Assembly (NCBI GenBank): GCA_003162175.1
Contig: PMMR01000041.1
Location: 1,663-48,221, forward strand
Reading direction: 5' to 3'
From: Candidatus Methanoflorens crillii
GTDB lineage: Archaea > Halobacteriota > Bog-38 > Methanoflorentales > Methanoflorentaceae
DNA length: 46,559 nucleotides
Below, one piece after another: positions 16,377 through 42,627 of this stretch. The position numbers and the translations under genes are program-made. Within the stretch, counting starts at the first letter, position 1. Each line of letters starts with the position of its first letter. The notes beneath the pieces were generated by a model. It was given only the letters and a program-made list of their open reading frames with translations, was not told the origin of the DNA and ran no database searches.

Positions 16377-16661
16377 CTGAGTCAAGAGCCGCAGACTAAG
16401 GTTAGACTGCCACGGAAGGAAGAAGGGAAAGTCCTCGGGAGTGTAGAAAGCATGCTCGGCGCAAACAGGGTGAAAATCCACTCTATAGACGGCAAAACTC
16501 GCATGGGGAGAATTTGCGGCAAGATGAAAAAGCGCGTCTGGTTACGAGTCGGCGGCGTCATCGTTATGGTGCCCTGGAGTTTTCAAGACGATAAAGCGGA
16601 CATCGTGTGGCGATACCAAGGAACGCAGGTTGAGTGGCTCAAGAAGAACGGGTACTTATAG
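16377..16661 (+). CDS. eif1A: Translation initiation factor 1A, probable CTG start
   Basis: The OB-fold of aIF1A is intact: LPRKEEGKVLGSVESMLGANR, then DGKTRMGRICGKMKKRVWLR and VIVMVPWSFQ. The first in-frame ATG (16452) lies inside this conserved core, after the family KVRLPR..EG segment. Reading back to the stop at 16293-16295 there is no ATG, GTG or TTG in frame. The CTG at 16377, 5 nt after GAGGTG, gives 94 residues, the normal length. aIF1A binds the 30S A site and promotes start-codon selection, so near-cognate initiation here may be regulatory. It heads the aIF1A-rio1-dim2 cluster. A sequencing error is the main alternative. Confidence 0.85.
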   Translation: MSQEPQTKVRLPRKEEGKVLGSVESMLGANRVKIHSIDGKTRMGRICGKMKKRVWLRVGGVIVMVPWSFQDDKADIVWRYQGTQVEWLKKNGYL

Positions 16662-16700
16662 CGCCACTAAACAGCGCGTTCTCGGCCCACTAAACAACTA

Positions 16701-17489
16701 ATGACCAACGTGCCTGATTTGATTGACGACAAGATAAAACGCATCGAGAGAGACATTGACGATCTGCGCGTACGCGACAAAGAAGCAGACGATTTCAAGG
16801 TGCGAGACGAAGTATTCGACGAGCTCACCCTTAAGGCTCTGTATCGCCTCGCGAGCGGCGGGCTTATACAAGCGCTTGGTGGCCCTATTTCGACGGGAAA
16901 AGAAGCTAACGTTTTCCACGCCATAGGGAGGGGCGGACGAGAACTCGCGATCAAGATCTATCGAATAAAAACGAGCGACTTTAAGGCTATGCACAACTAT
17001 ATACTGGGCGATTACAGATTCGCGCACGTCAGAAGAACCAAAAAGGACATAGTATTCGCGTGGACAAAGAAAGAATTCCGGAACCTAACGCGCGCGCGTA
17101 AAGCACGCGTCCGCGTCCCCGAGCCGCTCAAATATTGGCAAAATGTCCTCGTCATGCAGTTTATAGGGCGAGAAGGCGTCGCTTGTCCGCCTTTGAAGCA
17201 GGCAGTGGAAAACTTAGAAAACGTCAAAGAGGTTTACGACGCAACGGTCGAATTCATGAAGAGACTTTATCAAGATGCACACGTGGTCCACGCCGACCTC
17301 AGTGAATACAACATACTTGTCGACGACCAAGCCGATCCGGTATTCATTGATATGGGGCAGTCTGTGCTTGTAGAGCACCCCCGTGCGCAGGAGTTTCTGC
17401 AGCGGGACGTCAGCAACGTGGTGAAGTTCTTCAACGAAGCTGGAGTGCAGGCTTCAGCGATCACGGTTTTGAGAGAGATCACTAAATGA
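16701..17489 (+). CDS. rio1: RIO1-type serine/threonine kinase
   Basis: The 262-residue protein carries the RIO1 P-loop GGPISTGKEANVFHA (about residue 60), the lysine in LAIKIYRIKTSDF, the catalytic HADLSEYNILVD (about 197-208) and the metal-binding IDMGQSV (about 215). RIO1 acts as an ATPase/kinase in final small-subunit maturation. The gene sits between aIF1A and a Dim2-like KH protein, both tied to the 30S subunit. Its stop overlaps the next start (ATGA). No N-terminal winged helix is present, which separates it from RIO2 at 19669-20574. Confidence 0.95.
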   Translation: MTNVPDLIDDKIKRIERDIDDLRVRDKEADDFKVRDEVFDELTLKALYRLASGGLIQALGGPISTGKEANVFHAIGRGGRELAIKIYRIKTSDFKAMHNYILGDYRFAHVRRTKKDIVFAWTKKEFRNLTRARKARVRVPEPLKYWQNVLVMQFIGREGVACPPLKQAVENLENVKEVYDATVEFMKRLYQDAHVVHADLSEYNILVDDQADPVFIDMGQSVLVEHPRAQEFLQRDVSNVVKFFNEAGVQASAITVLREITK

Positions 17490-18022
17490 GGGAGTACCTG
17501 AAGGTTCCTAGAGACCGCATAGGGGTCATCATTGGCGTCGGTGGTAGCACGAAAGCCCAGATCGAGGAAAAAGGCGAAGTGAAACTTGACATCGATAGCG
17601 CCGAGGGCACGGTCACGATCGAGAGTGATTCGCTCGGCATTTTGAAGGCAACAGAAGTCGTTAATGCGGTTGCTCGAGGTTTTAGCCCAGAAAAGGCCTT
17701 CCGGATTTTCGACGATGAACAGATAACCCTCGATATCATAAACCTTTCAAAGGTTGCCGATACGCCAAAGGAGCTCAAACGGATTATGGGGCGCGTAATT
17801 GGCAAAGAGGGAAAGACGCGAGAGGCTCTTGAGAGTCTCACAGGCGCGAATGTTTCTGTTTACGGCAAGACTGTTAGCACGATCGGGTACATCGATCAAG
17901 TTCAGACCGTCAGAACAGCTATCGAGATGCTCGCAGAAGGAGCCAAACACGCTGCGGTCTACAGTTTCCTTGAAAGAAAACGGCAGGAACTAAAACGCTC
18001 CCAAATGGATTATCTTGAATGA
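17486..18022 (+). CDS. KH-domain ribosome-assembly protein (Dim2/Pno1-like)
   Basis: The 178-residue protein has two KH-type modules: KVPRDRIGVIIGVGGSTKAQIEE (residues 5-27, GxxG = GVGG) and a second with GRVIGKEGKTREALESLTGANVSVYG (GKEG loop). This is the layout of archaeal Dim2p/Pno1, which binds the 3' end of 16S rRNA and stimulates aIF2/Nob1-related steps. It overlaps rio1 by 4 nt. The ATG at 17486 matches the family N-terminus MREYLKVP. Confidence 0.92.
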   Translation: MREYLKVPRDRIGVIIGVGGSTKAQIEEKGEVKLDIDSAEGTVTIESDSLGILKATEVVNAVARGFSPEKAFRIFDDEQITLDIINLSKVADTPKELKRIMGRVIGKEGKTREALESLTGANVSVYGKTVSTIGYIDQVQTVRTAIEMLAEGAKHAAVYSFLERKRQELKRSQMDYLE

Positions 18023-18025
18023 CTA

Positions 18026-18317
18026 ATGCCGTCGAATAGAGAAGCGTTCATCCGTCACGCGGCACAGGCGCTGCAAGAAGCTGAGATACATCTGCCGCGC
18101 GATGTTACGCGGGCACTCGCCAACGAGCAAAGGCTGAGTCGGACGAACGGGTCAAAGAACCATAGGCGCGATCCTTGAAAACGTCAGGCTAGCGGGTGTT
18201 GCGGGTCTTCCGATGTGCCAGGACACCGGCATTCCTAACAGCATCTACGAAACGGTCCGTGTAAGCTCGCGCGAACGTGTCCTACACTTGATCGCTGATC
18301 GAAAACGCAGCCTATGA
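18026..18317 (+). pseudogene. Relic of class I fumarase / tartrate dehydratase alpha subunit
   Basis: Directly after the KH gene, an ATG at 18026 opens a frame with helices typical of the fumarase alpha N-terminus (EIHLPRDVTRALANEQ). The homology then continues in another frame as AESDERVKEP, hits TAG, and shifts again to IGAILENVRLAGVAGLPMCQDTGIP. CQDTG holds the first Fe-S cysteine of the family. The sequence then degrades (IYETVRVSSRERV) and stops at 18315-18317. At least two frameshifts and loss of about two thirds of the roughly 280-residue protein mark it as dead. No beta subunit follows. Confidence 0.75.
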
Positions 18318-18330
18318 CCTACCGGCCGCA

Positions 18331-19632
18331 TCAATCAATTTTTTTCTGGGTGTCTATGATCCGCTCGTGTTTGTACGCTTCAACAAGCGACTCAAGCCGG
18401 CAAAGCTGTTCGTGTTGTTTTGCGTTGGCGATTTCTGTTTGACCCTTCTCGATCATAAGCTCCAATGCATTCTTGTCGATCGTCATCAAATTGCCAGAAA
18501 GATCCAAGGCGAGCTCTCGCATCGAAAAAATAGGAATATCAGCTTTAAATAGCGTTTTTCGTGCTACGTGCGACATTTCGTTTTTAACGACAACGGCGCG
18601 TATTCGCTTGTGGACCAACAATTCTGCAGCAGCGATGCCGCCACCGCTTGCATCCTCGAACAAAACGATGCCTTTGCTCAGCCCAAATTGATCATCCGCA
18701 GCCTGAATCGCTTCTCGGTTGAAGGATTTGACGATTTTAACTGCCTTTACCGCTTTGTTACGTTCAGTTAACCCGATTTGCTTCAGCTTACGCATACGTT
18801 TCTGCAAGCCCTCGTTGACGCTTTTGCTGCGCACAAGCTCGGTCGAAAGGCGGTCGATTTCCTTTTGCCTGAACGTAACTTCTCTGTCTTTTTTGACGTT
18901 CTTTGCGTCTTGAGACCGTATGACACTAATCTTGTCTTGCAGCTTTACAACATTTTCTTGGCCTAACTGCAACGATTCCTTCAGATCAGCCACGTAGCTC
19001 AAAAGTCGACTAATTTGCTCGTCTTGTCGTTTGATGATTGCCTTGAGGTACAGGATATCGGGACCCCGGAGATCCTTCTCGGGAGCTGGAACAAGGCGCT
19101 GTACGTGATTTTCAGTAGGCGCTAGGGGCTTTTTGAGCAAATTGATCGCAGAATCAACCGTATGTCCGCGCAAAACGAGCATCTGAAGTTCGTCGAGTTC
19201 AACATCGGGAGGAGCTCTCTTCTGCACACTTTCAAGCTTGTTTTTGAGGCTTCTGGCAGCGTCGATTGCCGCGGCGAGCGCGTCTCGCTCGTGCTCGTTT
19301 GAATAGTCGAAGAGCTTCGTATCGCGCTGTTTCTGTTCAACCGAAAGTGATGAAGCAGGCGTGTGCAGAATCGCGTTAAAGGCTCGCTTTATTCGTTCGA
19401 CAGTTCCAGGAACTGGATTCTTGTCCGTTGCGATGATAAGCGGGTGTCCCGATTCAATTAGCAGCCCGACGAGCTCAGAAAAACCCCACGATCTTGAGCT
19501 TCCGGTTCTAAGGACTCGACCCTTTAAATCCAAAACAGCAAAAGCGGTGGTTGTTCCGGGATCTACACCGACGATAGTGTACGTCCTCTTTGACGCAACT
19601 AGATTTCCGCCGTTTTCCTTAATGGTCGAAAT
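18331..19632 (-). CDS. DUF460 / COG2433-type RNase H-like nuclease with coiled coil, probable ATT start
   Basis: About 433 residues. The N-terminal RNase H-like domain reads YTIVGVDPGTTTAFAVLDLKG and continues through FSELVGLLIESGHPLIIATDK. A long charged coiled coil (about residues 195-290) and a C-terminal domain (IVLFEDASGGGIAAAELLVHK) follow. The first TTG in frame (19533) would cut off VGVDPGTTT. Between the upstream TAG and the conserved strand there is no ATG, GTG or TTG. An ATT at 19632, 7 nt after GGAGGTG, gives a plausible MSTIKENGG start. It follows rio2 by 36 nt. Predicted nuclease; the function is untested as far as I know. Confidence 0.82.
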   Translation of the reverse strand: MSTIKENGGNLVASKRTYTIVGVDPGTTTAFAVLDLKGRVLRTGSSRSWGFSELVGLLIESGHPLIIATDKNPVPGTVERIKRAFNAILHTPASSLSVEQKQRDTKLFDYSNEHERDALAAAIDAARSLKNKLESVQKRAPPDVELDELQMLVLRGHTVDSAINLLKKPLAPTENHVQRLVPAPEKDLRGPDILYLKAIIKRQDEQISRLLSYVADLKESLQLGQENVVKLQDKISVIRSQDAKNVKKDREVTFRQKEIDRLSTELVRSKSVNEGLQKRMRKLKQIGLTERNKAVKAVKIVKSFNREAIQAADDQFGLSKGIVLFEDASGGGIAAAELLVHKRIRAVVVKNEMSHVARKTLFKADIPIFSMRELALDLSGNLMTIDKNALELMIEKGQTEIANAKQHEQLCRLESLVEAYKHERIIDTQKKID

Positions 19633-19639
19633 TGCGTCG

Positions 19640-19646
19640 CACCTCC
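19640..19646 (-). promoter_or_regulatory. Shine-Dalgarno sequence preceding an ATT start
   Basis: The reverse strand reads GGAGGTG, a near-perfect Shine-Dalgarno sequence. It sits 7 nt from the ATT at 19632-19630 and in the gap between rio2 and the DUF460 gene. The GTG within it starts a frame that ends at TAA after seven codons, so it does not serve the gene. Confidence 0.65.
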
Positions 19647-19668
19647 AACGCGCTTCCTAATACTCTCA

Positions 19669-20574
19669 CTAACCTGCAAAACGGTCTGCGGGACCGTGAT
19701 CGCGTTGTTTTACGTATGCTAAAACATCTTCTGTTCGTTTTGCTATTTGATATTTTCTAGCAAAATAGGATAAGACGGTGCTCACGTCTCTATAGAGCAA
19801 TTCATCAGCATTGGGATGCGCCACTGAGACCCATTGCGGCCAGTCGATCAGCGCGATGTCTCCGTCGGCACACACAACTACGTTGTATTCGCTTAAGTCG
19901 GCATGAACAATGCCAAGCTGGTACGTTAACTTAATCTGCGCAATGATCTTGTCAAGAATGGCGATAGGGTCTCCCAGCGTAGTGCTGCTTATCTCTCGAC
20001 CGTCTACTAGTCCCATGACGATAACATGTCGGTTGTGCGCAATCGGCCTCGGAACGGCGACGTTCCCGTACAGGGTGGTAATGGCTTCATACTCTCTTTC
20101 GGCTGCGAGCCTCGAAGCAAGCATCCACGAGCATCGTTCGGCCTTTCCGAAATAACCCCTCGATCGTTTTACGTGCCGGAACGTCGTGCCTTCACGATGA
20201 AATTTGACGATTACGATCCGCCCGCCTTCACGCTCAGCGTCGTAAATATCGGACTCTTTCCCGACGCCCACTTTCGATCCAAGGGACTCTATGGCCGTGC
20301 GCCGAACGAGCGTGTTAATGGCAAGGGCATCATAACCGCCGAAGGTTAGCTTGTAGCCGACGTAATGGCCCGTTTTCCGCTCAACGAGCTTGTATTTGGA
20401 AATCCGTGTGATTCGGTACTCCACCTCGTCTCGCGGCAGCCGAGCGTAGTTAGGCAGATCATCGACGGGAACCCAGTCAAAAAAACGCATGCCGGTTTCG
20501 ACCGCTTGTAGCACTCGGAAATCATAGCGCTCCAGCTCCTTGAATTCGCGTGCGATATCTTGAAGCATCTTCAC
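19669..20574 (-). CDS. rio2: RIO2-type serine/threonine kinase
   Basis: The 301-residue protein has the RIO2 N-terminal winged helix (LARYDFRVLQAVE-like helix, then RITRISKYKLVERKTGHYVGYKLTFGGYDALA), the P-loop SKVGVGKESDIYDA (about residue 100), the HADLSEYNVVV catalytic loop (about 223) and IDWPQWVSVAHPNAD. RIO2 acts in 30S/40S maturation and its winged helix binds rRNA. Divergent from ncsA and followed by the DUF460 nuclease gene. The metal-binding motif IDWPQ is the RIO2 form, against IDMGQ in RIO1. Confidence 0.95.
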   Translation of the reverse strand: MKMLQDIAREFKELERYDFRVLQAVETGMRFFDWVPVDDLPNYARLPRDEVEYRITRISKYKLVERKTGHYVGYKLTFGGYDALAINTLVRRTAIESLGSKVGVGKESDIYDAEREGGRIVIVKFHREGTTFRHVKRSRGYFGKAERCSWMLASRLAAEREYEAITTLYGNVAVPRPIAHNRHVIVMGLVDGREISSTTLGDPIAILDKIIAQIKLTYQLGIVHADLSEYNVVVCADGDIALIDWPQWVSVAHPNADELLYRDVSTVLSYFARKYQIAKRTEDVLAYVKQRDHGPADRFAG

Positions 20575-20649
20575 AGCCTCATAGTCAGTCCCCGTTTCTC
20601 CCCGCGCTGCAGAACAGTTTATTAGTATTCATGCGGAGATATACACGAG

Positions 20650-21543
20650 ATGAAGTGCGATAAATGTAGCGCGCCTGCTGTTCTATTTCAGAGATATTCA
20701 GGGCTACATCTTTGCAAGGCACATTTCTTCGCCGACGTCGAAAAAAAGATCAAAAAAGAGGTCAGAAAGGAACGAATCGAGGGCACACTCGCCGTTGCGT
20801 TCAGCGGCGGGAAGGACTCTGCCGTGGCTTTATCCGTATTAAGTGACCTCTTCTCACGCCGTGGCGTTGAAATTGTGGCCATCACTGTCGACGAAGGTAT
20901 TGCCGGATACCGTGATAAGGCACTTGAATCAGCAGCAATGCTCGTCACAGAGCTCGGCGTTCGATGGCAGGTAGCTTCGTTTGAGGAGTACTTTGACGTC
21001 AGAGTCGATCGCTTGGACGAGCGACCGTGTACGGTTTGCGGAATCCTCCGACGCTCACTTCTTAATCGCGTGGCAAAAACTGTCGGCGCCTCGACACTTG
21101 CCACTGGCCACAATCTCGATGACGAAGCGCAGACAGTCCTAATGAACTATTTACGCGGAGACATCGACAGGCTGCTGCGGCTTGACCATCCCGCTAAAGA
21201 AGGACTGGTTCGGCGCGTCAAACCACTCAAATATGTGCCAGAAAAAGAAGTCGCGCTATACGCTGTTCTCAAAGGAATCCCTATCAGCCTTGATGAGTGC
21301 CGCTACTCTGCTGGGGTATTTCGAGCTGAAGTGCGAAGCGTGTTGAATGAGTTAGAGCCTAAGCATGCAGGCACCAAGTACGCGCTCGTCAAGGGCCTTG
21401 AAAGGATCTTGGGATTAACGCGACGCGAGCCGTTTCAGCTCGGTCACTGCCTACAGTGCGGAGAACCCGCGGTCAAGGCCCTATGTCAGAGCTGCGAAAT
21501 CCTGAGAGGGTTGCAATCGAGAGGAAACGAAGCGGCCAAATGA
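20650..21543 (+). CDS. ncsA: tRNA 2-thiolation protein NcsA (Ncs6/CTU1 family)
   Basis: The 297-residue protein starts with a zinc finger (MKCDKCSAPAVLFQR..LCKAHF) and has the PP-loop AFSGGKDSAVAL (about residue 52), the catalytic CTVCGILRRSLLN (about 127) and a TGHNLDDEAQT motif. A second zinc finger closes the protein (CLQCGEPAVKALCQSC). This is the layout of archaeal NcsA, which adenylates and thiolates U34 of tRNA-Lys/Glu/Gln with help from a SAMP-type sulfur carrier. It is separate from ThiI, which acts on U8. Confidence 0.93.
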   Translation: MKCDKCSAPAVLFQRYSGLHLCKAHFFADVEKKIKKEVRKERIEGTLAVAFSGGKDSAVALSVLSDLFSRRGVEIVAITVDEGIAGYRDKALESAAMLVTELGVRWQVASFEEYFDVRVDRLDERPCTVCGILRRSLLNRVAKTVGASTLATGHNLDDEAQTVLMNYLRGDIDRLLRLDHPAKEGLVRRVKPLKYVPEKEVALYAVLKGIPISLDECRYSAGVFRAEVRSVLNELEPKHAGTKYALVKGLERILGLTRREPFQLGHCLQCGEPAVKALCQSCEILRGLQSRGNEAAK

Positions 21544-21577
21544 GGCGGCGCCGAAGCGTATTAAATGAACGAGCACG

Positions 21578-22735
21578 TTAGAGAATGTTGTCAATCTCGC
21601 CGGATTCGAATTCCCTGGCGAAGTCTCTCACGCGTGGCCCTTTTCTGGCGCTGGTGGCTTGTTTTGCGCTTTCAAACTTGAACAGCTCGCCATACATCGG
21701 CCCTAACACCTGAGCAGATTGCACGCCAGTCACGATCGACATCACCCGCACGCGGCCCTCATAACCTTTCTGAACACGCGCGCCCCAAATGACATTAGCG
21801 CTTGGATCCAACTGAGAGGTCAGGCCCTTTGCGATCTCTTCGGCCTCTTTCAGCGTCAAGTCCGGTCCGCCTGTGATATGGATTAACGCGCCTTTCGCCC
21901 CGCGGAAGTCAACTTCGAGGAGTGGATGGTTGAATGCCTCGCGTACGACGTCGCGTGCTTTGTCTTGGCTTCGCGATTCACCGACTAGCATAGCAGCAAC
22001 CCCGCCGCTATTCATAATGGTTCTGACGTCTGCGTAGTCAAGGTTTATCAGTGAAGGTTGCGTGATCGTTTCAGCGATGCCTTTTACGGTTTCTGCAATA
22101 ATCTGATCCATCACCGAGAACGCATGGTCAATGGGCAAGTTCGGCACGTAATCAAGCAGACGATTGTTATCAAGAACAATAACCGTATCAGCATCTCTCC
22201 GCAGGTCTTCAAGTCCTTCTTCAGCCTTAATCAGCCGCGAGCGTTCCACGTTGAACGGAGTTGATACCATTGCAACGACGATTGCGCCATGCGCTTTCGC
22301 GATCTGCGCGACGATCGGAGCAGCCCCTGTGCCGGTTCCGCCCCCCATCCCTGCGGTAACGAACACAAGATCGGTATCTTTAAGCAGCGTTTCCAGCGTC
22401 CTACGACCTAACTCGGTCGCACACCGCCCGACTTCAGGATCTCCACCTGCCCCCAACCCTTTCGTAATCGATTTGCCGACTAACACCTTAATATCGGCGT
22501 CGATCATGTCCAAATGCTGCTTGTCAGTGTTGAGCGCGATGGTCTCAGCGCCGTCAACTCCTATGTTGTAGAGTCGGTTGACCGTATTGTTGCCAGCCCC
22601 TCCGCAGCCCACAATGAGTATCCGAGGGGCTCCAAATTCTTCTTCTTCCTCATCTTGAAGCATCTGAGGTCGCTGCTTTTCCATTTCGCATCGTCGCAAA
22701 GCTTCCTCGACAATACTTTGCATATCTACCGCCAC
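21578..22735 (-). CDS. ftsZ: Cell division GTPase FtsZ
   Basis: The 385-residue protein contains [26 protein letters not shown], the tubulin signature [15 protein letters not shown] (about residue 130), [24 protein letters not shown] and the T7 loop [13 protein letters not shown]. FtsZ polymerises into the division ring. The N-terminus has an acidic stretch (DEEEEEF) usual in archaeal FtsZ1. The C-terminus ends [10 protein letters not shown]. It lies 5 nt downstream of an RHH regulator, the arrangement known from the haloarchaeal cdrS-ftsZ2 operon. Confidence 0.97.
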
Positions 22736-22740
22736 CTGTA

Positions 22741-22917
22741 CTAAATCAAAACCGCACTTCGTTCTTTTCTGCTGAGGAGCTTCTCATAATGGGTGTCAAC
22801 CAGGTCTCGAACAGCTGCACGGATTGCTTCGCTCTTCGAGGGGAATTCGCCCGCTACCACTAGTTTGTCTATGAGTTCTAGCTGTTGTTTTGGCAATCTC
22901 AGTGTGATTCGCTCCAT
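22741..22917 (-). CDS. CdrS-like ribbon-helix-helix regulator
   Basis: A 58-residue protein: the beta strand [19 protein letters not shown] is followed by the [18 protein letters not shown] helix pair, a canonical RHH/CopG fold. The ATG at 22917 is the family start; a TTG and an ATG lie in frame just upstream. In haloarchaea CdrS lies next to ftsZ2 and is a master regulator of cell division; the same pairing here suggests this role. The stop is 5 nt before ftsZ. A duplicated inverted-repeat element lies 29-108 nt upstream and is a good candidate for its own operator. Confidence 0.85.
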
Positions 22918-22945
22918 AGCAACCATTTGCAAGTTTTTGTAGTGT

Positions 22946-22970
22946 CAGACGAAGAGCTGACTTCTGTCTG
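22946..22970. promoter_or_regulatory. Putative operator copy 1 (CAGAC-N15-GTCTG) upstream of cdrS-ftsZ
   Basis: CAGAC at 22946-22950 and its reverse complement GTCTG at 22966-22970 are separated by exactly 15 nt. The left arm is part of TAGTGTCAGAC, which is repeated in copy 2. It lies 29 nt upstream of the cdrS start, probably in the 5' leader. RHH proteins typically bind tandem or inverted 4-6 bp boxes. Confidence 0.6.
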
Positions 22971-23000
22971 CTTCAGAGACCACAAAAAGCTGCCTAGTGT

Positions 23001-23025
23001 CAGACACATGTCTGTTACTCGTCTG
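23001..23025. promoter_or_regulatory. Putative operator copy 2 (CAGAC-N15-GTCTG) upstream of cdrS-ftsZ
   Basis: The same architecture as copy 1, exactly 55 bp further upstream: CAGAC at 23001-23005 and GTCTG at 23021-23025, again with 15 nt between. TAGTGTCAGAC (22995-23005) is identical to the copy 1 arm. A third GTCTG (23010-23014) makes a local palindrome CAGACA-CA-TGTCTG. The interval 23026-23229 holds A/T-rich promoter-like sequence (about 23043-23100) but no gene that I can recognise. Confidence 0.6.
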
Positions 23026-23229
23026 ACTCCTAATCACCCTACTGCAATATTAAGTTTTTGTTATCTCTTTTTTATAAAAAAAACTGTATATTAAACTACC
23101 AAATTTAGCTGTGCACTATAAAGAAGCTCTGAAGCGCCCCGAAACCAGAATCAGAATCACTCTAGTCATATAAAATCGCTCACCGAACACAGTAAAGAAT
23201 AAGTAATAACGGTCGCAATACTGTCGTCA

Positions 23230-23303
23230 CCCGCCTTAACTCAGTCTGGCAGAGTGGTCGGCTGTAGACCGACATGTCCCCCGTTCAAATCGGGGAGGCG
23301 GGA
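23230..23303 (+). tRNA. tRNA-Tyr(GTA)
   Basis: The acceptor CCCGCCT/AGGCGGG has the C1-G72 pair typical of archaeal tRNA-Tyr, with A73. The anticodon arm GTCGG-CTGTAGA-CCGAC gives GTA. The T-arm is CCCCG-TTCAAAT-CGGGG. There is no intron and no encoded CCA. It is followed 16 nt later by tRNA-Phe. Confidence 0.95.
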
Positions 23304-23319
23304 TTCACCCGCGAGTGAC

Positions 23320-23393
23320 GCTCCAGTAGCTCAGCCTGGGAGAGCGCCAGACTGAAGATCTGGTTGTCCCCGGTTCAAATCCGGGCTGGGGCA
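23320..23393 (+). tRNA. tRNA-Phe(GAA)
   Basis: The acceptor is GCTCCAG/CTGGGGC with A73. The anticodon arm CCAGA-CTGAAGA-TCTGG gives GAA, and the T-arm is CCCGG-TTCAAAT-CCGGG. There is no intron. It shares a transcript with tRNA-Tyr. Confidence 0.95.
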
Positions 23394-23415
23394 TTCCCAC
23401 TACACACACGAGCTT

Positions 23416-24224: not shown

Positions 24225-24254
24225 GGATGAATAAGTTGTAAATAGCGTGGTTCT

Positions 24255-24677: not shown

Positions 24678-24685
24678 TCTGAAGT

Positions 24686-27862: not shown

Positions 27863-29014
27863 TCAGCTCTGGTAGGATTTTCTTGCAGCTTCTATGTAAT
27901 GCGTGGCGTTGTTGAGCGCGGAATCCCTCGACTTACCATATCCGATAGCCGAGATGATCGGCTTCGCCCGCTCGATGTAAGCTCCTTTTTGGGGTATGTC
28001 CATGTAATGCGCGCGGCTGCACGCTCTGGTAACTTGAAAATCCTGCTCCGCGAAACAGATCATGCGACACGCGAATCTCCGATACTTTGTGAGGGGGATT
28101 AGTTCGCCCTGACAGCTTTTTATGTGGGCCTCGACGAGGTTGACGCCAAGTGATCCCTCGATCGTATCGAGAGTTCCTTGAAACCTTGGATTGATCTCAA
28201 TTACGACCGGGCCGCTTGGACCGATGATGAAATCAATGCCATTTGTACCAACCAAACCCAGATCGACTGCTAGCGAGTTCGAAATTCTTTCGATTTCCTT
28301 CGCATAAGTCGTTTTAAGCGGAGTCAAACTGCCACAGAAGCTGAAGCGCCGCATTGGGCCAAGACTCCTGAGACCGATGAGCTGTTCGTTTATTGCGACA
28401 GTGACCGCCTCCTTGCCGGTAGACAGCACCGAAGCGCTAGCATCAATACCGCGAACATATTCCTCAACGAGGAATTCATCTCCCCACCCACTCTCATGAT
28501 ATTGTTCAATACTCCTTTGAAGATGCTCCTCATCTTTGACGAGAACGTTCTTAAATCCTCCCGCACCTCGCTTTGGTTTCAGAATGACGGGAAATGGCAG
28601 ATTATCTTCTAACCCATAGTGCGCGGGGACTGAATAGCCTAAGGATTGGAGCTTGTCTCTCATACGACCCTTGTCATTAACGAAGCTCGAAAGCGAAGGA
28701 GGATTTCCAGCCGTTCGCGGGATCTCAAGTGTCTCAAAACCTGCGGCTAGTATTGCGTGGTCATAGTCCAAGCCCCTCACGAGCGCTTTTACGCCGGCAT
28801 AGTCTGAGTCGGAGATTATTCCAGGGAACTCGTCTCTTATGAAACGCGTTACGTCACCGCATTTGATCAAGTCACGATCTTCGTAATGGCTTACGGACTC
28901 GACGTAGTACCCTGCTCGCTTCGCAGAGCATATTATATGCCTTGTGTTATATCCGACGACAAGGATCCGCTGGTCTCCATCACTTCGACTGGCGGTGCTA
29001 GTTGATCTGCTCAG
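27863..29014 (-). CDS. ATP-grasp protein, probable CTG start
   Basis: About 383 residues. A PurK-like N-terminal domain ([34 protein letters not shown]) is followed by the ATP-grasp core ([67 protein letters not shown]). The first canonical start in frame, TTG at 28870, would remove the whole N-terminal strand-helix unit. In frame upstream there is only CTG at 29014, 9 nt after AGGTG and two codons after a TAA. It overlaps trm56 by 17 nt. The substrate is unknown; related enzymes ligate a carboxylate to an amine. Confidence 0.8.
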
Positions 29015-29528
29015 AACGCTTTACACCTACCTTGTTACTCATGTTGCCGATGATCTTCATTTTGCCTTCAAAATCCGCCTTGAGCTCCTGCCCCCTCTGG
29101 AGGTGATCAAGAAAGACGCTTAAGGCTGCTATCTCTGAGTGGGGTTGATTCGTAACCGCTACGTTGTAATCCGCGAGTCGGTAGAGGTCTGGAGGCACCT
29201 TTTCCGCTCCTACCACGACCATAAGCTTCTCGCTTTCGAGTCGACCGATCGCGTGTGGAAGGTTCTCTCCATACATGGTCAGGTGCACGACCGTGCCCAT
29301 TTCTCGCTTCCATTTCACGATCTCTCGCCTCCAGTTGGCGTTATCGCGAATCCAGAAGCTGCCCCCCCAACGTTGCACTACGTCGCGTATTGTAGACACG
29401 ACAGAGCGGTCGGAAGCAGCGAGAAGCATCCCTTGGGCTCCTAACGCCCTGGCACACAGACCTACGTGCGTCGTGACGCGGCGATCGCGCTCGATTCGAT
29501 GACCCACCCTCAAAACCACAATTTCCAT
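28998..29528 (-). CDS. trm56: tRNA (cytidine(56)-2'-O)-methyltransferase
   Basis: The 176-residue protein begins [31 protein letters not shown] and has the SPOUT knot region [12 protein letters not shown] and [42 protein letters not shown]. This matches archaeal Trm56, which methylates C56 in the T-loop of tRNA. It is a dimeric SPOUT enzyme found only in archaea. The ATP-grasp gene starts within its last codons. Confidence 0.93.
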
Positions 29529-32408: not shown

Positions 32409-32409
32409 C

Positions 32410-35201: not shown

Positions 35202-35274
35202 CACGAAAGAAGATCCTGGCGAAGGCACCTTCCCGCTGATCGTACATACGACTTAGAGGCGCACTATTGCGCTT

Positions 35275-36438
35275 TTAAGACGTGGCTTGACCCGCTTTTT
35301 CTGCCACTTCATGGCAAACCACCAACAATTCCTCACCGGCCTTGTCCCACGAAAACTTCCGCGCTTGCGCTACGCCTTTTCTACTCATCTCTCTTTTTAA
35401 GTCGTCGTCCTCGAGCACGGTGAGCATTGCCTGCGCAAGCGCTTCGACGTCATACGGATCAACGAGGAGAGCTGCTTCTCCGACGACTTCTGGCAGCGAG
35501 GAGGCGTTCGATGCTATAACCGGGCACCCACACGCCATCGCTTCGAGTACAGGGAGTCCAAATCCTTCGTAAAGCGAAGGGTAAATGAAAACGTCGGCTT
35601 GCTCATACAGGGTCAGTATGTCCTCGTCTGGCAAGTATCCCGCAAATGTGATTTGGCTGTTTTCATTTCGCTTTTTGATATCCTGAAGGGTGGCCTCTAA
35701 TTCGGGAATGGCGGTTCTCATATATCCTGCGATGACTAATTGCAAAGGATTTTGAGAGCGTTTTTGCGCGAGCTCAAACGCCTTTATCAGCCGGAGATGA
35801 TTTTTCCGTGGAGAGATATCAGACACGATCAGGATCTTGTTACTTCCGAAATCATCTCGAGGACTTTTTGGAGCGATGAACGAGCCGTGGTGAATCACCA
35901 CAACTCTGTCCGCTTGCAGACCCCAAAAACGCATTGCGTCCTTTTTCGTTGATTGTGAGACCGCAATGTATTTTTCAGGTACGTCGCTGAAGTGTTTTTG
36001 AAACGTATTGAAGAGCTTCATGGTCCGCCTGCCTTGGATACCGTCCTCAGAAAAAACGTACGGTATAAAATCGTGCACGACTTGGATCCATCTTGACCTA
36101 GGCAGAAAGCCGTACTTTATGAGCAGAAGAAAAAAATACAAAGCCTCTAAAGGGTCGAGCACGTCCCATGGTGGGGCCAGGAACAGAACCACATCACTTT
36201 CCTTATACAACCGTATAAGTTTCACCATAGTCTGAGGTGTTAGAAAACGCGCTATTGTCAAAAGTGAGACTTTTTGATTAACGAGGAGAGAAGGAGTAAT
36301 GAAGTCTATGCCTTGACGAGCGAGGACTGAAACCGCGTCCACTTCATCTGACTCGGATATTCTTTTGAGAAGCTCCTCGGCGACCCGTGGTATCCCATCT
36401 TTCTGTTGGGGAAAAGGTGCGATGACAGTAACTTTCAT
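35275..36438 (-). CDS. GT4-family glycosyltransferase
   Basis: The protein has 387 residues from the ATG at 36438 ([27 protein letters not shown]). It has a GT-B fold: N-terminal acceptor domain, then [66 protein letters not shown] with the E-x7-E nucleotide-sugar motif, and [11 protein letters not shown]. The sugar and acceptor are unknown. It is on the opposite strand from its neighbours, convergent with wecB. The N-terminal domain contains a hydrophobic stretch ([15 protein letters not shown]) that may associate with the membrane. Confidence 0.92.
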
Positions 36439-36712
36439 GAGCCTATAATGCCGTTCCGAGCTCCGACTCGCAATCACTTCTGGACTGAAGGCAGCTAAGG
36501 CATTTACCTCTGATTTCCGGTTTATCCTTCGTTCTAATGGCTCTCATTTCGGAAGCGAGTCAAGCTCCTTTGCTTAGTTCATCTAGGCGGTGCACAGTAA
36601 GCACTTCGAGCAACCATCTGTTCGTCATATTACAAATAAATACAGCTTGGTAGTGTTGTAATACTGTACAAAAAATCCTTTTTCTCCGTTTAAGTCGCTA
36701 AAAGAGGGGGTG

Positions 36713-37918
36713 ATGACATTGAAAATAGCGCAAGTTTGCATCAGGTATCTCGCTCCCGGCGGCGTGGAAACGCACATACAAAAGATTTCAGAGCGGTTGG
36801 TGCAACGAGGCCACGACGTGACGGTCTATACAACAAACCTGAAAACACAGGTGCCTTGGCAATGCTTTGAAGAATACACGGCAGATAGTTACGTCAACGG
36901 CGTGCGGGTAGTTCGGCTGCCAGTTAAACGATACCCATTCCCTTACGCAGCATACCCCGCCATTCCTGGCTTGATTAAGACTATTTTCGACGCTGAAGAT
37001 GATATCGTCCACGCCCATTCGCACCGCTATTACCAGATTCTTGCGTGCGCTGCAGCGAAATTGAAACGGGGCCGTCGACAAGGACGATACCAGATGCCAC
37101 TAGTGGTCACCCCTCACTTTCATCCGCCGTCTAACGTGGAATCGCCCGCCGCACGATTCCTGATGGGACTAGACGACATCCTCGTTTCGCGTCGCGTTTA
37201 CAGAATGGTCGATAAGGTACTGGTTGTAACCGACAGTGAAAAGCCTTTCATCGGAAGATTCGCGCCCTTAACGAAGTGCGTTACCGTCCCAAACGGATTA
37301 GACATAGAAGACTGGACCCCTATTCCCGACGGTCGACTTTTCCGGAGGCGCTACAGGATGGACGACGATGAGAAGATGATCCTTTATACTGGAAGATTAG
37401 CAGATAACAAGGGACTGGAACACTTGGTAGACGCCTCATATGACGTCGTTGCGAGGTATCCTGAAGCAAAATTCGTCATAGTAGGGGAAGATTGGGGCGT
37501 GCTGAAAAGGCTCAAAAAGAAAATATGGGCAAACAATTTGGATGATTACTTCGAGTTCACAGGCCATATAGACAGTTATGAACTTTTTAAGTCAGGATAT
37601 GCGGCTGCCAACGTATTCGTTCTACCGAGTGAGTGGGAAGCTTTTGGCATCGTTTTGCTCGAAGCGATGGCGTGTGGTACCCCAATTGTTGCTTCAGACG
37701 TTGGAGGGATCCCCGACGTCGTCGGAGATATCGGCAGAATATTTAAGTATGGAGATACACGAGCTCTTGCCGAAAACATCATTGATATTCTTGACAATGA
37801 GGAGCAGGAACGAGAGAAGAGCATTCAAGGCAGGGCGAAGGTAATTGAACAATTCACTTGGAGCGCCGTGGTCGATAGGCTTGAAGCAATCTATGGAGGC
37901 CTCGTCGACTCCAAGTAA
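36713..37918 (+). CDS. GT4-family glycosyltransferase
   Basis: About 401 residues from the ATG at 36713; a GTG just before it is also in frame and GAGGGG precedes both. The GT-B fold shows YLAPGGVETHIQKISERLVQRGHDVTVYTT, VPNGLDIEDW, LYTGRLADNKGLEHLVDA, FTGHIDSYELFKSGYAAANVFVLPSEWEAFGIVLLEAMACGTPIVASDVGGIPDVV. It resembles archaeal transferases with PimB-like order. The sugar is unknown. An ACAAATAAATA stretch at about 36630-36642 may be its TATA box; 36439-36709 holds no other gene. Confidence 0.93.
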   Translation: MTLKIAQVCIRYLAPGGVETHIQKISERLVQRGHDVTVYTTNLKTQVPWQCFEEYTADSYVNGVRVVRLPVKRYPFPYAAYPAIPGLIKTIFDAEDDIVHAHSHRYYQILACAAAKLKRGRRQGRYQMPLVVTPHFHPPSNVESPAARFLMGLDDILVSRRVYRMVDKVLVVTDSEKPFIGRFAPLTKCVTVPNGLDIEDWTPIPDGRLFRRRYRMDDDEKMILYTGRLADNKGLEHLVDASYDVVARYPEAKFVIVGEDWGVLKRLKKKIWANNLDDYFEFTGHIDSYELFKSGYAAANVFVLPSEWEAFGIVLLEAMACGTPIVASDVGGIPDVVGDIGRIFKYGDTRALAENIIDILDNEEQEREKSIQGRAKVIEQFTWSAVVDRLEAIYGGLVDSK

Positions 37919-37992
37919 TTTGCACGCTGCCAAATCCTTCGAGTTTTGTGGGCTGTTGTTTTGATAGGCCGGAAGACGTGAGCACATAAGAG

Positions 37993-39273
37993 ATGGCATC
38001 AACTAATGACGAAAAAACAGCTAAGCTGAAGCGCGGGTCATTGGTGCGCGGCATTAAAAACAGCGCGCTTTTGTTTGGTGGAAATGCGATCTCTGCAGTA
38101 ATCTCGTTTGTCATCACCGTTTACATCGCGCGATTGCTGCCTGTATCAGACTTTGGCTCCTATATTACGGTGATCTCGTTTGTGACCTTGTTCGGCATCT
38201 TCACGGATTTCGGGATTAACACAGTCATAATCCGCGAAGGAGCAAAAAACCCTGAAGATACACACAACCTCATTTTTAGCGCGATGGGGCTCAAGTATCT
38301 CATGTCCCTCGCATCCATGCTTGCTGTGATCGTATTCGCTCTTTTCACGCCTTACTCATTCGAGGTGAAGGCGCTGATCGCGTTAATGTCTATCACGCTC
38401 TTGATGGGCGGCATCGGGAGCATGTTCAGCGCCGTTTTCAACATTTACCAGGACATGAAGTACATCTCGATCATTCAGATCGCTGAACGAACCACTTTTG
38501 CCTCTTTCGCGCTGATCTTTCTGATCGCAGGACTTGGCGTGCCCGGCGTCATACTTGCGATCATCATAGCCGCTTTTGTCAGCCTGGTGTTGAGTTTCGT
38601 ACTCAGCCGACGAATTCACTACTACAAGCTGAACTTCAGACCCATATTAGATTATACTTTACTAATGCCGGCGTTTTGGTTTGGCATTGCGGGGCTGCTT
38701 GGGACAGTCTGGCAACGGGTGGACACCATTATGCTCTCACTGTTGACCAATATGACGCAGGTCGGACTGTACACCCCAGCGGTCAACTACGTGGGAATAG
38801 GGGACATGGCTGTCCTCGCGCTCACTGGCGCATTCTTTCCCATTGTCTCGAGAATGGTGCACGAGAGGAGGGTATCCAAAAAGGAACTCGCTAAATATCT
38901 CGGCTACTTCGCTGTAGCAGGACTTGTCATTGTGGCGGTAACGTATGCTTTCGGAGGAGAACTCATGATCTTGGCGTTCGGGCCGAAATACGCCGAGTCT
39001 ATCGTGTTCATCAACATCCTTATCATCGGATTTGCCGTGAATTTGGTAACGATCCCAACCAGCCTGTTGCTGGACGCAACGAACAATCAGAAGGTACACG
39101 TGCTGAATGCGACCTATCTGACGGGGGTGAACGTTGGGCTGAACTTGGTTTTGATACCGGCTATGGGCGCTTTAGGTGCCGCGTATGCGACGACTATATC
39201 GCAGAGTCTTGGCGCGGCTCTCGGCATACCCATTGCGCTCTACGTCTTGCTGCGGTCACACTATCTACGATAA
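37993..39273 (+). CDS. Polysaccharide flippase (Wzx/MVF superfamily)
   Basis: The 426-residue protein is almost entirely hydrophobic, with about 12 predicted membrane helices. It begins with a short cytosolic basic tail (KLKRGSLVRGIKNSALLFGGNAISAVISFVITVYIARLLPVSDFG), the usual flippase start, and has DFGINTVIIREGAKNPED and IDATNNQ-like loop motifs. It should move lipid-linked oligosaccharides across the membrane. It follows the GT4 gene by 74 nt, fitting export of the glycan made by the cluster. Confidence 0.92.
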   Translation: MASTNDEKTAKLKRGSLVRGIKNSALLFGGNAISAVISFVITVYIARLLPVSDFGSYITVISFVTLFGIFTDFGINTVIIREGAKNPEDTHNLIFSAMGLKYLMSLASMLAVIVFALFTPYSFEVKALIALMSITLLMGGIGSMFSAVFNIYQDMKYISIIQIAERTTFASFALIFLIAGLGVPGVILAIIIAAFVSLVLSFVLSRRIHYYKLNFRPILDYTLLMPAFWFGIAGLLGTVWQRVDTIMLSLLTNMTQVGLYTPAVNYVGIGDMAVLALTGAFFPIVSRMVHERRVSKKELAKYLGYFAVAGLVIVAVTYAFGGELMILAFGPKYAESIVFINILIIGFAVNLVTIPTSLLLDATNNQKVHVLNATYLTGVNVGLNLVLIPAMGALGAAYATTISQSLGAALGIPIALYVLLRSHYLR

Positions 39274-39479
39274 GCGAGAGCCGTTATCCTTGTGCTCGTC
39301 TTTAGATTCAGACAAAGTAACCGCGCGGCTCAAACGCAAGAAGAGGAGCGATGAACACCGGAAAAGATAATAGCTCATTCAGCGTAACCACTATTTGGAG
39401 CACAACGTTATTCATTGGCTCTGTGCGATTTGCACGACCGCTTTTTGAAGAATGGCGCTAGCCAGACGAGGTAGTTCAC

Positions 39480-40715
39480 TTGAAAACAATATCAGAGAAG
39501 ATTCTATCAAAGCGCAGCGGGGTTGATGCCGCGAGTGGCGATATCGTCACCGTTCCAGTTGATTTGGTCTTCGCCCACGATGGCACCCTGCCACTTGCGA
39601 TCCAGGAACTGGGCGGACACTCAGTAAAGTTTCCAGAAAACGTCGTGGCTTTTTGCGATCACGCTTCGCCCTCTCCTTCGGAGAAAGTGTCCAACGTCCA
39701 AACGCTCATGCGGCAGTTTGCCCACAGGTACGGGTTGGATTTTTATGAAAATGGTGATGGGATTTGTCATCAAATTGTCCTCGAACGGTACGCGTCGCCC
39801 TATAAGATAATAGTGGGCGGAGACAGTCACACGTGCACCCACGGCGCACTCGGCGCTTTCGCCACTGGGATGGGTTCGACTGACGTGGCTTCGATCATGG
39901 CCTACGGAAAAACGTGGTTAAAGGTGCCAGAAACCGTCCACGTAGAGGTTTCCGGAAAGCTGCCGAAAAGCGTGCACTCGAAGGACGTGTTCTTAGAACT
40001 GCTTTCACGAATAACAGCAGACGGGGCCACTTATAAGGCTCTTGAATTCTACGGCGACACTGTTGAAGCGATGAGCGTCGAGTCCCGCGCTACGTTGTCA
40101 AACATGGCAATTGAAGCCGGCGCTAAGGTAGGAATGTGTGCAGCAGATGAAAAGGTTGAAGCGTATCTAGCGCACTACGGGCGCAGCAGTGATTTTACGC
40201 CTTTGTGCGCCGACAAGGATGCAATTTATGTTGAGGAGGTCCGCATTCGCGCCGAGACTATCGTTCCGATGATCGCTAAACCCCACAAGGTCGATAACGT
40301 CGTTCCGGTTACGGAGCTTGAAGGTCAGGAGGTAGACCAAGTATGCATCGGCTCGTGCACAAACGGACGGATTGAAGATCTCCGTGCGGCGGCACGCATT
40401 CTGGATGGACATCAGAGCAAAGCGCGCCTCGTGATTTACCCTGCAAGCCGCGGTGTCCTTCTAGAAGCCCTTAAAGAGGGAGTCTTAGAAACGCTTTTAA
40501 AGGCAGGCGCCTCGATAGGCCCCCCTGGATGCGGCTTTTGCATAGGAAGGACGGTCGCCTTGGGAGATGGCGAAGTTGCTCTTTCCACGCAAAACAGAAA
40601 CTTCAAAGGCAGGATGGGCAACGATAATTCGTTCATTTACCTGTCGAGTCCGTCAACAGCGGCAGCAAGTGCGATCGGAGGGAAGATCACAGATCCGCGA
40701 GGTTTAGAGCGTTGA
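39480..40715 (+). CDS. Isopropylmalate-isomerase/homoaconitase-type dehydratase, large subunit
   Basis: The 411-residue protein starts with TTG about 7 nt after GAGGTAG. It has the aconitase-family Fe-S ligands CIGSCTNGRIEDL (about residue 289) and GPPGCGFCIG (about 350), plus VVGGDSHTCTHGALGAFATGMGSTD. These enzymes isomerise isopropylmalate, homocitrate, citramalate or citrate by dehydration and rehydration. The specificity lies mainly in the small subunit encoded 24 nt downstream. Together with the dehydrogenase and synthase nearby it forms a full 2-oxoacid extension set. Confidence 0.92.
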   Translation: MKTISEKILSKRSGVDAASGDIVTVPVDLVFAHDGTLPLAIQELGGHSVKFPENVVAFCDHASPSPSEKVSNVQTLMRQFAHRYGLDFYENGDGICHQIVLERYASPYKIIVGGDSHTCTHGALGAFATGMGSTDVASIMAYGKTWLKVPETVHVEVSGKLPKSVHSKDVFLELLSRITADGATYKALEFYGDTVEAMSVESRATLSNMAIEAGAKVGMCAADEKVEAYLAHYGRSSDFTPLCADKDAIYVEEVRIRAETIVPMIAKPHKVDNVVPVTELEGQEVDQVCIGSCTNGRIEDLRAAARILDGHQSKARLVIYPASRGVLLEALKEGVLETLLKAGASIGPPGCGFCIGRTVALGDGEVALSTQNRNFKGRMGNDNSFIYLSSPSTAAASAIGGKITDPRGLER

Positions 40716-40739
40716 ACGCTGTTCTCGATGGAGGAAAAC

Positions 40740-41252
40740 ATGAAAATTGAAGGGCCTGTTGTCCGAGTATTTCCTAGTGATACTAACACAGACGAGATCA
40801 TTGCTGGCAAATACAAATATGATGAGCTGGACTTGAACAAGCTCGCTCGGCATACCTTTGAATCACTCGATACGCACTTTTATGATGATTGCACGCGCTT
40901 GAAAGATCCGATTCTGGTTGCTGGCGCGAACTTCGGGTGCGGCTCATCACGAGAGCAAGCCCCACAGGTTCTCAAAGCTTGCGGTATCTCCTGCGTCATC
41001 GCCGACTCTTTCGCTCGCATATTCTACCGAAATGGCTTCAATATCGGCCTTCCATTGGTGGAGTGCGAGAGCATCTCAAACAACGTGACCCGAGGCGAGA
41101 TGCTTAACGTCGATTTCGGTAGAGGGGTGATTCAAAGCGAGAATCGAAATGCCGAGTATCGCTTCAAGCCCATTCCACAGTTCATGCAAGAATTGTTAGA
41201 AAGAGGCGGACTAATGCAATACTTGGACGCCCGTGGCGGATTCACGGACTAA
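40740..41252 (+). CDS. Isopropylmalate-isomerase/homoaconitase-type dehydratase, small subunit
   Basis: About 170 residues from the ATG at 40740 ([20 protein letters not shown]). The swivel domain keeps [44 protein letters not shown]. In M. jannaschii homologues the loop after the TD.II motif (YLRT in homoaconitase, YLVY in isopropylmalate isomerase) sets specificity. Here the loop reads [10 protein letters not shown], matching neither, so the substrate is open. Pairing with the adjacent large subunit is evident from order and spacing. Confidence 0.9.
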
Positions 41253-41292
41253 CGAATTGAGCGTTCTTAACAACTGAAGTTCTGGTGATGAA

Positions 41293-42324
41293 ATGCGAGA
41301 AGTAGCCGTCATATTGGGAGATGGAGTTGGACCTGAACTGGTCAAAGCAATGATGCGAATCGTTACTGCTACCGGGGCGCCCCTAAATATGGTCCCTTGT
41401 GAAGCGGGAAGCGATTGGTACGAATCTCACGCAGGAAACTCATTGATTCCCGATGAGACCTGGGACGTAATCAACTCAACTCAAGCGTGTTTCAAAGGGC
41501 CGACAACAACACCCGGGGGGCCCGGTTCCCCACGCAGCGTCGCGGTTACCATTAGGCAGGAAAAGGACCTATTTGCAAACGTTCGTCCGATACGGACGTT
41601 TCCGAATACCCCCCGTCCTCTTGGAGATGTCGACTTTGTGTGCGTGCGCGAAGCGACTGAGGGCATGTACTCGGGCAGTGAAGTGCAGCTCTCGAGCGAT
41701 ATGTACGTCGCCCTACGGAAAATCACGAAATCGGCGAGTCGAAGAATAGCTCACTTCGCTTTTGCAGAGGCGGACAAACGAAGCTGGAAAACGGTTGTCG
41801 CTATCCACAAAAGCAACATACTAAAGCAGACGGACGGCGCTTTTCTCAACGCCGTTCGCGAGGTTAAAAACGAGTACTCCAGCATAGAACTCTGGGAGTA
41901 CCACGTGGACAACGTCGCACAACAACTCGTGAAGAATCCGCAAGTATTCGACAAATCGATATTGCTGTCTACTAACCTCTTCATGGACATACTAAGTGAA
42001 GAGTGTGCGGCGTTGGTTGGGAGCATTGGAATGAGCTACTCGGCGAATTTCGGCGACGCTTATGCCATGTTTGAACCCGCTCACGGTTCAGCCCCCAAGT
42101 ATCAAAACCTTGATAAGGTGAATCCCACGGCTACCGTACTCGCCGGAGCATGGATGCTCGATTACTTAGGCTTAAAACACGAATCCGCAATCATATTCAA
42201 TGCCCTCCAAGAGACCGTTGCCGAAGGCAACACGACGTACGACCTCGGAGGCGCTCTTAAAACAAGCCAAGTGACCGAGTGCATCATGGAAAAAGTTGAG
42301 GGGGGCCAGGACTCAGCTCCTTGA
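41293..42324 (+). CDS. Isocitrate/isopropylmalate/homoisocitrate dehydrogenase family
   Basis: The 343-residue protein is a beta-decarboxylating dehydrogenase: VILGDGVGPELVKAMM, a substrate loop (RSVAVTIRQEKDLFANVRPIRTF) with the conserved Arg residues, REATEGMYSGSE, KSNILKQTDG, LVGSIGMSYSANFGD and FEPAHGSAPKYQNLDKVNPTATVLAGAWML. The NAD-type sequence (EPAHGSAPKYQNLDK) is not typical NADP-IDH. It oxidises the 2-hydroxy acid made by the dehydratase pair upstream (41 nt gap). Confidence 0.92.
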   Translation: MREVAVILGDGVGPELVKAMMRIVTATGAPLNMVPCEAGSDWYESHAGNSLIPDETWDVINSTQACFKGPTTTPGGPGSPRSVAVTIRQEKDLFANVRPIRTFPNTPRPLGDVDFVCVREATEGMYSGSEVQLSSDMYVALRKITKSASRRIAHFAFAEADKRSWKTVVAIHKSNILKQTDGAFLNAVREVKNEYSSIELWEYHVDNVAQQLVKNPQVFDKSILLSTNLFMDILSEECAALVGSIGMSYSANFGDAYAMFEPAHGSAPKYQNLDKVNPTATVLAGAWMLDYLGLKHESAIIFNALQETVAEGNTTYDLGGALKTSQVTECIMEKVEGGQDSAP

Positions 42325-42342
42325 CGCGATCGACCAAAAGCC

Positions 42343-42627
42343 TCATTCTTTTTCTGAACAGGCCGCGCAAGCGCTTCGGCTTTGGTCTAACACGAGACGC
42401 TTCTTGCTGCAGCTCACGCACTCTTGAGAAAGCCCCCCGCTTACGAAGCGCTTTTTCGGAGACATGTATCGACAGTCGAAACCTTCACGTAGCGTTTCGA
42501 TCGAGCACTCATCGCACTGCACTTCGTGAACCATAATGCCTTCGCCGGCCAGGACACAAGAGTAAAAATCGAGGCCTTCCGATCCGAGCAGGACACGCTC
42601 ACGCCTGCGGTAGCGGCACTCCTTCGT
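42343..42627 (-). CDS. Nine-cysteine putative zinc protein, start codon uncertain
   Basis: A frame directly downstream of the synthase encodes a protein with strong coding character and nine cysteines: KECRYRRRERVLLGSEGLD, FYSCVLAGEGIMVHEVQCDEC, REGFDCRYMSPKKRF, QECVSCSKKR and SACAAC. The only ATG (42534) would lose the first 30 residues, which look coding. No ATG, GTG or TTG exists between the synthase stop (in the same frame) and 42534. ACG at 42627, 7 nt after a GGGGG stretch, is the best candidate; CTG at 42591 is another. Probably two zinc knuckles. I recognise no named family. Confidence 0.6.
   Translation of the reverse strand, partial: TKECRYRRRERVLLGSEGLDFYSCVLAGEGIMVHEVQCDECSIETLREGFDCRYMSPKKRFVSGGLSQECVSCSKKRLVLDQSRSACAACSEKE

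Follow-up and report, generated by a model that had tools for sequence, protein, structure and literature searches.

How does translation begin on a gene that offers no standard start codon? The question arises for a window of 46,559 nucleotides (nt) from the archaeon Candidatus Methanoflorens crillii, the whole stretch of DNA analysed here (positions 1663–48221 of contig C53 in G000, a 1.82-Mb draft genome of 69 contigs). A preliminary description of this window named four genes, for translation initiation factor aIF1A, a DUF460 protein, an ATP-grasp protein and a cysteine-rich protein, that have no in-frame ATG, GTG or TTG at their N termini, and proposed that the lineage initiates on near-cognate codons behind Shine–Dalgarno (SD)-like sequences. 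We find that the aIF1A start recurs far beyond the genus and that two of the other genes resemble it within the genus. We read aIF1A as started at CUG, probably as part of a feedback that senses initiation fidelity in the manner of bacterial infC, and we give this reading as a whole a probability of about 0.6.

The aIF1A start codon in the genus and the phylum

The aIF1A copy in the window (copy 1) extends over positions 16377–16661 (+) when read from the proposed start CTG at 16377–16379; it matches PF01176 (E = 1.1e-18), with a tail preceding the OB-fold domain. Its frame (16296–16661) holds no ATG, GTG or TTG before an internal ATG, codon 26 counting from the CTG. The SD sequence GAGGTG (16366–16371, +) gives a run of six matches against AGGAGGTGATC and lies 5 nt before the CTG; counted from GGAGG, the distance is 7. 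A site for the 16S rRNA 3′ end was found with one mismatch in G004 and none was found in G000, so that the anti-SD of G000 itself was not seen. The SD is identical in G000–G004 and G006, and the CTG is kept in five of six genus genomes (G000, G001, G003, G004 and G006). Between G000 and G003, codons 1–24 differ 6, 6 and 16 times at codon positions 1, 2 and 3, and the Protein Data Bank (PDB) structure 1jt8 aligns from residue 2, along the tail. A second copy, on contig C68, was found in six genus genomes and reads GAGGTGTT-NNN-CTG in every one. In both G004 and G006 (loci L007 and L008), copy 1 has lost 1 nt close to a stretch of seven Gs, about 14 codons past the CTG, with the remainder open; this copy may be decaying or frameshifted in these genomes.

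Each protein was searched for in 60 genomes, comprising G000, six others of its genus (G001–G006) and 53 of the same phylum. For aIF1A this yielded 92 loci from 59 of the 60 genomes and from 20 families of this one archaeal phylum, and at each locus we recorded the in-frame triplet 6–8 nt behind the best SD, with no codon preselected. Where the SD run was at least six (41 loci), the triplet was CTG at 30 and TTG at 4 loci, and ATG or GTG at none; the remaining seven loci had CAG, GCC, GTC, AGA, AAG, TCT and GAA, once each. All eight loci with a run of at least seven had CTG, and those with a run of at least five (68 loci) had CTG 37 times and TTG five times, the others being scattered. When codons were drawn at random from the same segments in 300 trials, CTG came up a mean of 1.7 times and never more than 5 times, a comparison that is not a probability because the loci are related by descent. 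The 34 leucine codons at the 41 strong-SD positions are all CTG or TTG, which make up 38% of leucine codons in the bodies of aIF1A genes; the codon is therefore constrained, and not merely the leucine. This shows that the triplet at SD spacing is held as what appears from comparison to be a start-capable non-AUG codon.

A second count, which took CTG with an SD run of at least four and searched the interval from the upstream stop to the VR.P core for canonical codons, found SD-CTG at 52 of the 92 loci, in 38 genomes and 14 of the 20 families. No ATG, GTG or TTG precedes the core at 35 loci, 32 of which have SD-CTG; at 21 of these 32, the first core residue is not a canonical codon either. In several loci of family f2, the protein read from the CTG would begin Met-Ala-Asn-Tyr-Arg. 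The codon-agnostic scan read the frameshifted copies of G004 and G006 in the wrong frame, where they did not reach its thresholds, and the second count excluded them. A typed pattern of SD-CTG plus tail was too specific, with matches in just five of the 60 genomes.

A further sample from the family of G016 (40 genomes, 37 with a match) points the same way. There, 29 of 30 loci were placed, that of G065 being left unread, and a further 18 pieces of sequence, some of which repeat one another, were also read; CTG predominates. The script placed 22 of 38 extra loci, with CTG at SD spacing in 18 of the 22; its motif missed the other 16, all of which except that of G065 were read by eye. In G086, a single-contig genome, all four aIF1A copies have CTG, and the part shown contains no ATG, GTG or TTG before the core. 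Four copies apiece occur in G086 and G067 (L341–L348), with SD-CTG in all eight. The preliminary description, in tying the aIF1A start to one lineage, thus drew its scope too narrowly: the CTG start is common to many families of the phylum, and is therefore a property of the gene, not of the lineage.

A like feature in the partner factor aIF1 was considered and rejected, ATG being the start in all 30 loci read (of 68 matches) and also in G000. As a calibration of the fixed-spacing scan aIF1 failed, giving AGA, AAG, CAA and similar triplets and no ATG at 13 loci with an SD run of at least five, because the distance from SD to ATG is longer in aIF1.

Other candidate genes and the frequency of near-cognate starts

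The DUF460 gene (18331–19632, −; PF04312, E = 2.3e-38, 131.4 bits against a cut-off of 28) has ATT as its proposed start at 19632–19630. Its SD, GGAGGTG (19640–19646, −), stands 7 nt before the ATT and gives a run of seven in six of seven genus genomes and of six in the seventh. The ATT is kept in all seven, with GGAGGT(G) at a constant distance, and six of the seven lack a canonical codon before about codon 33, by which point the domain has begun; the exception is G001, with TTG at −9 and +10. The tail ahead of the domain is open, and comparison within the genus leaves it not clearly constrained. Just beyond the gene, at 18023–18330, two short frames correspond to portions of frames in G001, G004 and G006, and longer frames nearby are common to G003, G001, G004 and G006 and have no match in G000; the region in G000 seems to be a remnant of a longer gene, whose product, by its motif, looks like a fumarase-type hydratase.

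The cysteine-rich protein gene (42343–42627, −) has its proposed start ACG (42627–42625) in six of six genus genomes, and its first canonical codon is an ATG at +31 in all six. Codons 1–30 differ between G000 and G003 6, 7 and 15 times at positions 1, 2 and 3, a coding pattern. The SD-like sequence GGGGGAAGC (42631–42639, −) is weak in G000 (a run of three) and GGAGG in G003, G004 and G006. The protein has no Pfam match at E = 0.01, and its matches come from six of the 60 genomes searched, all of the same genus.

The ATP-grasp gene (27863–29014, −; PF02655, E = 7.3e-33, 114.4 bits against a cut-off of 23.2) is the weakest case. An AGGTG (a run of five) stands at a spacing of 11 from the proposed CTG at 29014–29012. 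At 29021–29026 (−), G000 reads GTG then TAA and G001–G004 read GTG TTA, so that in four of the five sisters compared (G001–G005) a GTG stands in frame four codons before the CTG; the fifth, G005, has CTA at the site and ATG at +3. Canonical starts are thus available in the orthologues. The TAA differs by a single base that, in the overlapping frame of the gene for the tRNA methyltransferase Trm56, changes GTT to GTA, both valine; the difference is synonymous there, and a real mutation is therefore possible, but the case rests on one genome. Conservation of the CTG proves little, because it falls where this frame and the last part of the Trm56 gene coincide, at 28998–29014 (−). The evidence for a near-cognate start here is weak.

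The preliminary description therefore holds in part. All four genes lack a canonical N-terminal start in G000, but the ATP-grasp orthologues do not. An SD-like sequence 5–9 nt ahead is present in aIF1A (5 nt) and DUF460 (7 nt), but is weak in the cysteine-rich gene of G000 and stands at a spacing of 11 in the ATP-grasp gene. Family-wide conservation of the N terminus stands for aIF1A; outside the genus, full-length matches begin at residues 10–18 of the proposed DUF460 protein and 7–17 of the proposed ATP-grasp protein, and these two tails are therefore conserved only within the genus. The sister genomes (ATT in seven of seven, ACG in six of six, aIF1A CTG in five of six) strongly support near-cognate initiation in three of the four genes by codon and frame, and for aIF1A and DUF460 by SD as well, but not in the ATP-grasp gene, with GTG upstream in four of five sisters.

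The wider claim, that the lineage initiates on near-cognate codons, proves too broad. We compared 76 conserved frames of the window with G001, G003, G004 and G006; beyond the four genes, only short frames lacked an early canonical codon, and by position these are taken as shadow or antisense frames (for example, 14840–15079, opposite two tRNA genes, and 2923–3180). A larger sample, in which 652 kb of G000 was compared with 936 kb of G003, gave 324 orthologue pairs, 319 after removal of frames cut by the edges of the sampled stretches. In 71 of these 319, at least five apparently conserved codons precede the first canonical codon in G000. The 71 were narrowed to pairs in which G003 agrees, leaving out small low-scoring frames and pairs with an earlier canonical codon in G003. 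Among the pairs listed, nearly all show leader-like sequence or the end of a tRNA gene followed by a common ATG, GTG or TTG, and conserved near-cognate starts number four of 319 (about 1%): aIF1A copies 1 and 2, DUF460 and the cysteine-rich gene. The first of these is absent from the narrowed list, its G003 frame having a canonical codon far upstream. Fourteen of the pairs left out have at least ten such codons, including aIF1A copy 1 and the ATP-grasp gene; of six others examined, three have N gaps at the start, and the remaining three (C68:53748, C20:120382 and C30:23660) are described below. A few starts in the sample are ambiguous (for example, C3:47636). With nearly all other listed genes ending in a common ATG, GTG or TTG, a general near-cognate habit of the lineage is rejected. 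A rate control from G034 and G042 was unusable, the 136 pairs (edge frames removed) being too alike at a median identity of 95.6%.

As a proxy for ordinary starts we took the first canonical codon common with G003 (316 pairs: ATG 220, GTG 58, TTG 38). An SD run of at least six occurs in 8.9% of these and is reached by both aIF1A copies and DUF460. Elsewhere in G000, C68:53748 (L160, in the region G000:C68:53748-54747) reads GGAGG-GCTA-ATC (ATC/GTA here) against GGAGG-GTCA-ATG in G003, and C20:120382 has CTG against TTG in G003; both are possible candidates for near-cognate starts in G000 alone. For C30:23660, G003 has an ATG well upstream.

The window also contains a RIO1-type kinase gene directly 3′ of aIF1A (16701–17489, +; PF01163, E = 1.1e-60) and a tRNA-Met gene beginning with G1 (15032–15108, +), presumably of the elongator type by its G1. 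ARAGORN calls a further tRNA at 6662–6759 (−), with a four-base anticodon (cgta) and no type assigned, possibly a false call or an intron-containing gene.

A proposed feedback on start-codon strictness and its rivals

The comparison establishes codon, spacing and frame, together with their conservation, at the putative aIF1A start, and translation very probably begins there at CUG. In the mechanism that we propose, aIF1A of many non-halophilic members of the phylum would be read from CUG (UUG in some) 7 nt behind GGAGG. The 30S subunit would be anchored to the mRNA through the SD, after which acceptance of the mismatched CUG by the initiator tRNA would be proofread by the initiation complex with aIF1 and aIF1A. 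Scarce aIF1A would loosen discrimination and let CUG be accepted; plentiful aIF1A would cause CUG complexes to be rejected and synthesis to drop, giving homeostasis as for bacterial infC. In the same genus, DUF460 (from ATT) and the cysteine-rich protein (from ACG) may come under the same control, as a small regulon. Switches to CUG are very rare in general, at 2 of 61,358 ancestral AUG starts (PMC5622118), so that the retention of a CUG across 14 families needs explaining. Feedback on stringency is, we infer, the explanation that best fits a gene for a start-selection factor; that it operates through the aIF1A CUG is for us an even call. More tentatively, and somewhat short of even, an ancient CUG predating most sampled family splits could be an archaeal IF3-like sensor, with DUF460 and the cysteine-rich gene recruited to its regulon in the genus.

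Several observations weigh against the reading as a whole. SD-CTG is missing from 40 of the 92 aIF1A loci. These comprise all 14 loci of families f8, f13, f18 and f20 (ATG or GTG, mostly with a weak SD), every one of the five f5 loci (TTG, with ATG as well in one) and the two of f17; f1 (copy 1 of G002, G004 and G006), f4 and f12 contribute three each, f9 and f11 four each, and f3 and f10 one each. TTG serves some loci of f4, f9 and f12, and ATG some of f10 and f11; G027 has TTG, and G055 ATG or GTG, neither with SD-CTG. As TTG is an ordinary start, a special CUG sensor would not be required everywhere. Three of the seven strong-SD loci without leucine (G024, G037 and G053b) have an ATG just beyond the scanned spacing, and in the family of G016 the aIF1A of G066, G079 and G088 has ATG, with one TTG copy each in G073, G093 and G070. 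In the genus, copy 1 is altered in three of six genomes (CAG in G002, the 1-nt deletion in G004 and G006), and substitutions in the DUF460 tail show little third-position excess (7, 6 and 8 differences between G000 and G003 at positions 1, 2 and 3). Archaeal discrimination is credited mainly to aIF1, itself started at ATG: it is aIF1 that promotes the rejection of non-canonical starts, in cooperation with aIF1A (PMC6237735). The evidence throughout is that of sequence comparison.

The strongest rival is that the near-cognate codons are merely weak starts giving low, constant expression with no feedback, which we judge less probable but well worth weighing. Weak initiation is to be expected of CUG, AUU and ACG, plain weakness suits the TTG found in place of CTG in several families, and neither DUF460 nor the cysteine-rich protein has an evident tie to initiation fidelity. 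Yet a strong SD kept beside a weak codon would be an odd means of lowering expression, ATG and GTG are absent from the 41 strong-SD aIF1A positions, and the gene itself encodes a start-selection factor, whereas aIF1 retains ATG. Dual initiation, in which CUG would yield a longer form and a downstream GTG or ATG a shorter one, is improbable. Compatible with it are an in-frame GTG that encodes the V of VRLP in each of the six genus copy-2 genes and an ATG seven codons past the CTG in several f2 loci (and in copies b–d of G067), but 21 of the 92 loci have SD-CTG and lack any ATG, GTG or TTG between the upstream stop and the first core residue, that residue included.

A start at the internal ATG, with non-coding conservation upstream, is very improbable. 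It would account for the weak conservation of some tails and for the copy-1 frameshift of G004 and G006, which lies upstream of that ATG; starting at residue 26, however, would cost the protein the beginning of its OB-fold domain (the Pfam match begins at residue 18), and both the mostly third-position differences over codons 1–24 (6, 6, 16) and the alignment of 1jt8 along the tail argue for a coding tail. Least probable of all are assembly or base-call errors concealing ordinary starts, conceivable in a draft genome with N runs at other genes and a one-base GTG–TAA difference at the ATP-grasp gene, but largely excluded for aIF1A, DUF460 and the cysteine-rich gene (in line with the earlier view that chance error is unlikely) because the same codons recur in as many as seven separate genomes and that of aIF1A also in single-contig genomes such as G007, G014, G023 and G086.

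Comparison with known systems

Relatives of aIF1A are present in all domains of life, and gene finders restricted to ATG, GTG and TTG would misplace its start wherever CUG is used. Among the literature matches listed, judged by titles and the beginnings of abstracts, no paper describes a CUG start of archaeal aIF1A, and none describes an archaeal start-fidelity factor controlled through its own imperfect start; subscription papers and database annotations lay outside this scope, and curated records may already place the CUG. The review PMC7531240 has CUG nowhere in its main text. Ribosome profiling of Methanosarcina mazei assigned CTG starts to about 5% of unannotated small open reading frames (PMC11456600); these are small unannotated frames, and the terms 'IF-1A' and 'initiation factor' are absent from that main text.

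In bacteria, infC starts at AUU or AUC, through which IF3 autoregulates its translation, and the GTC start of Streptomyces sigR is under IF3 control (PMC5472188). The sigR gene, which does not encode an initiation factor, resembles DUF460 and the cysteine-rich gene in the dependence on initiation stringency proposed for them, but IF3 repression of its start was shown experimentally, whereas control of these two genes is proposed (PMC5472188). Like infC, the aIF1A gene encodes a start-selection factor with a non-canonical start on its own mRNA, conserved here at 52 of 92 loci in 14 of 20 families. It differs in that IF3 is not the counterpart of aIF1A, the codon is CUG rather than AUU, and the feedback proven for infC is for aIF1A deduced from sequence. 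In eukaryotes, eIF1 is reportedly autoregulated by its start context, as Ivanov et al. are said to have found in 2010. It too is a start-fidelity factor feeding back on its own start site, there an AUG in poor context with no SD; the eukaryotic factor concerned is eIF1, and at the archaeal aIF1 loci read the start is ATG. A recurrent CUG on aIF1A hints that the cell senses and sets its own start-codon strictness. Fidelity factors controlled through an imperfect start of their own are thus found in bacteria (infC) and eukaryotes (eIF1), and a CUG kept over 14 families would add an archaeal case.

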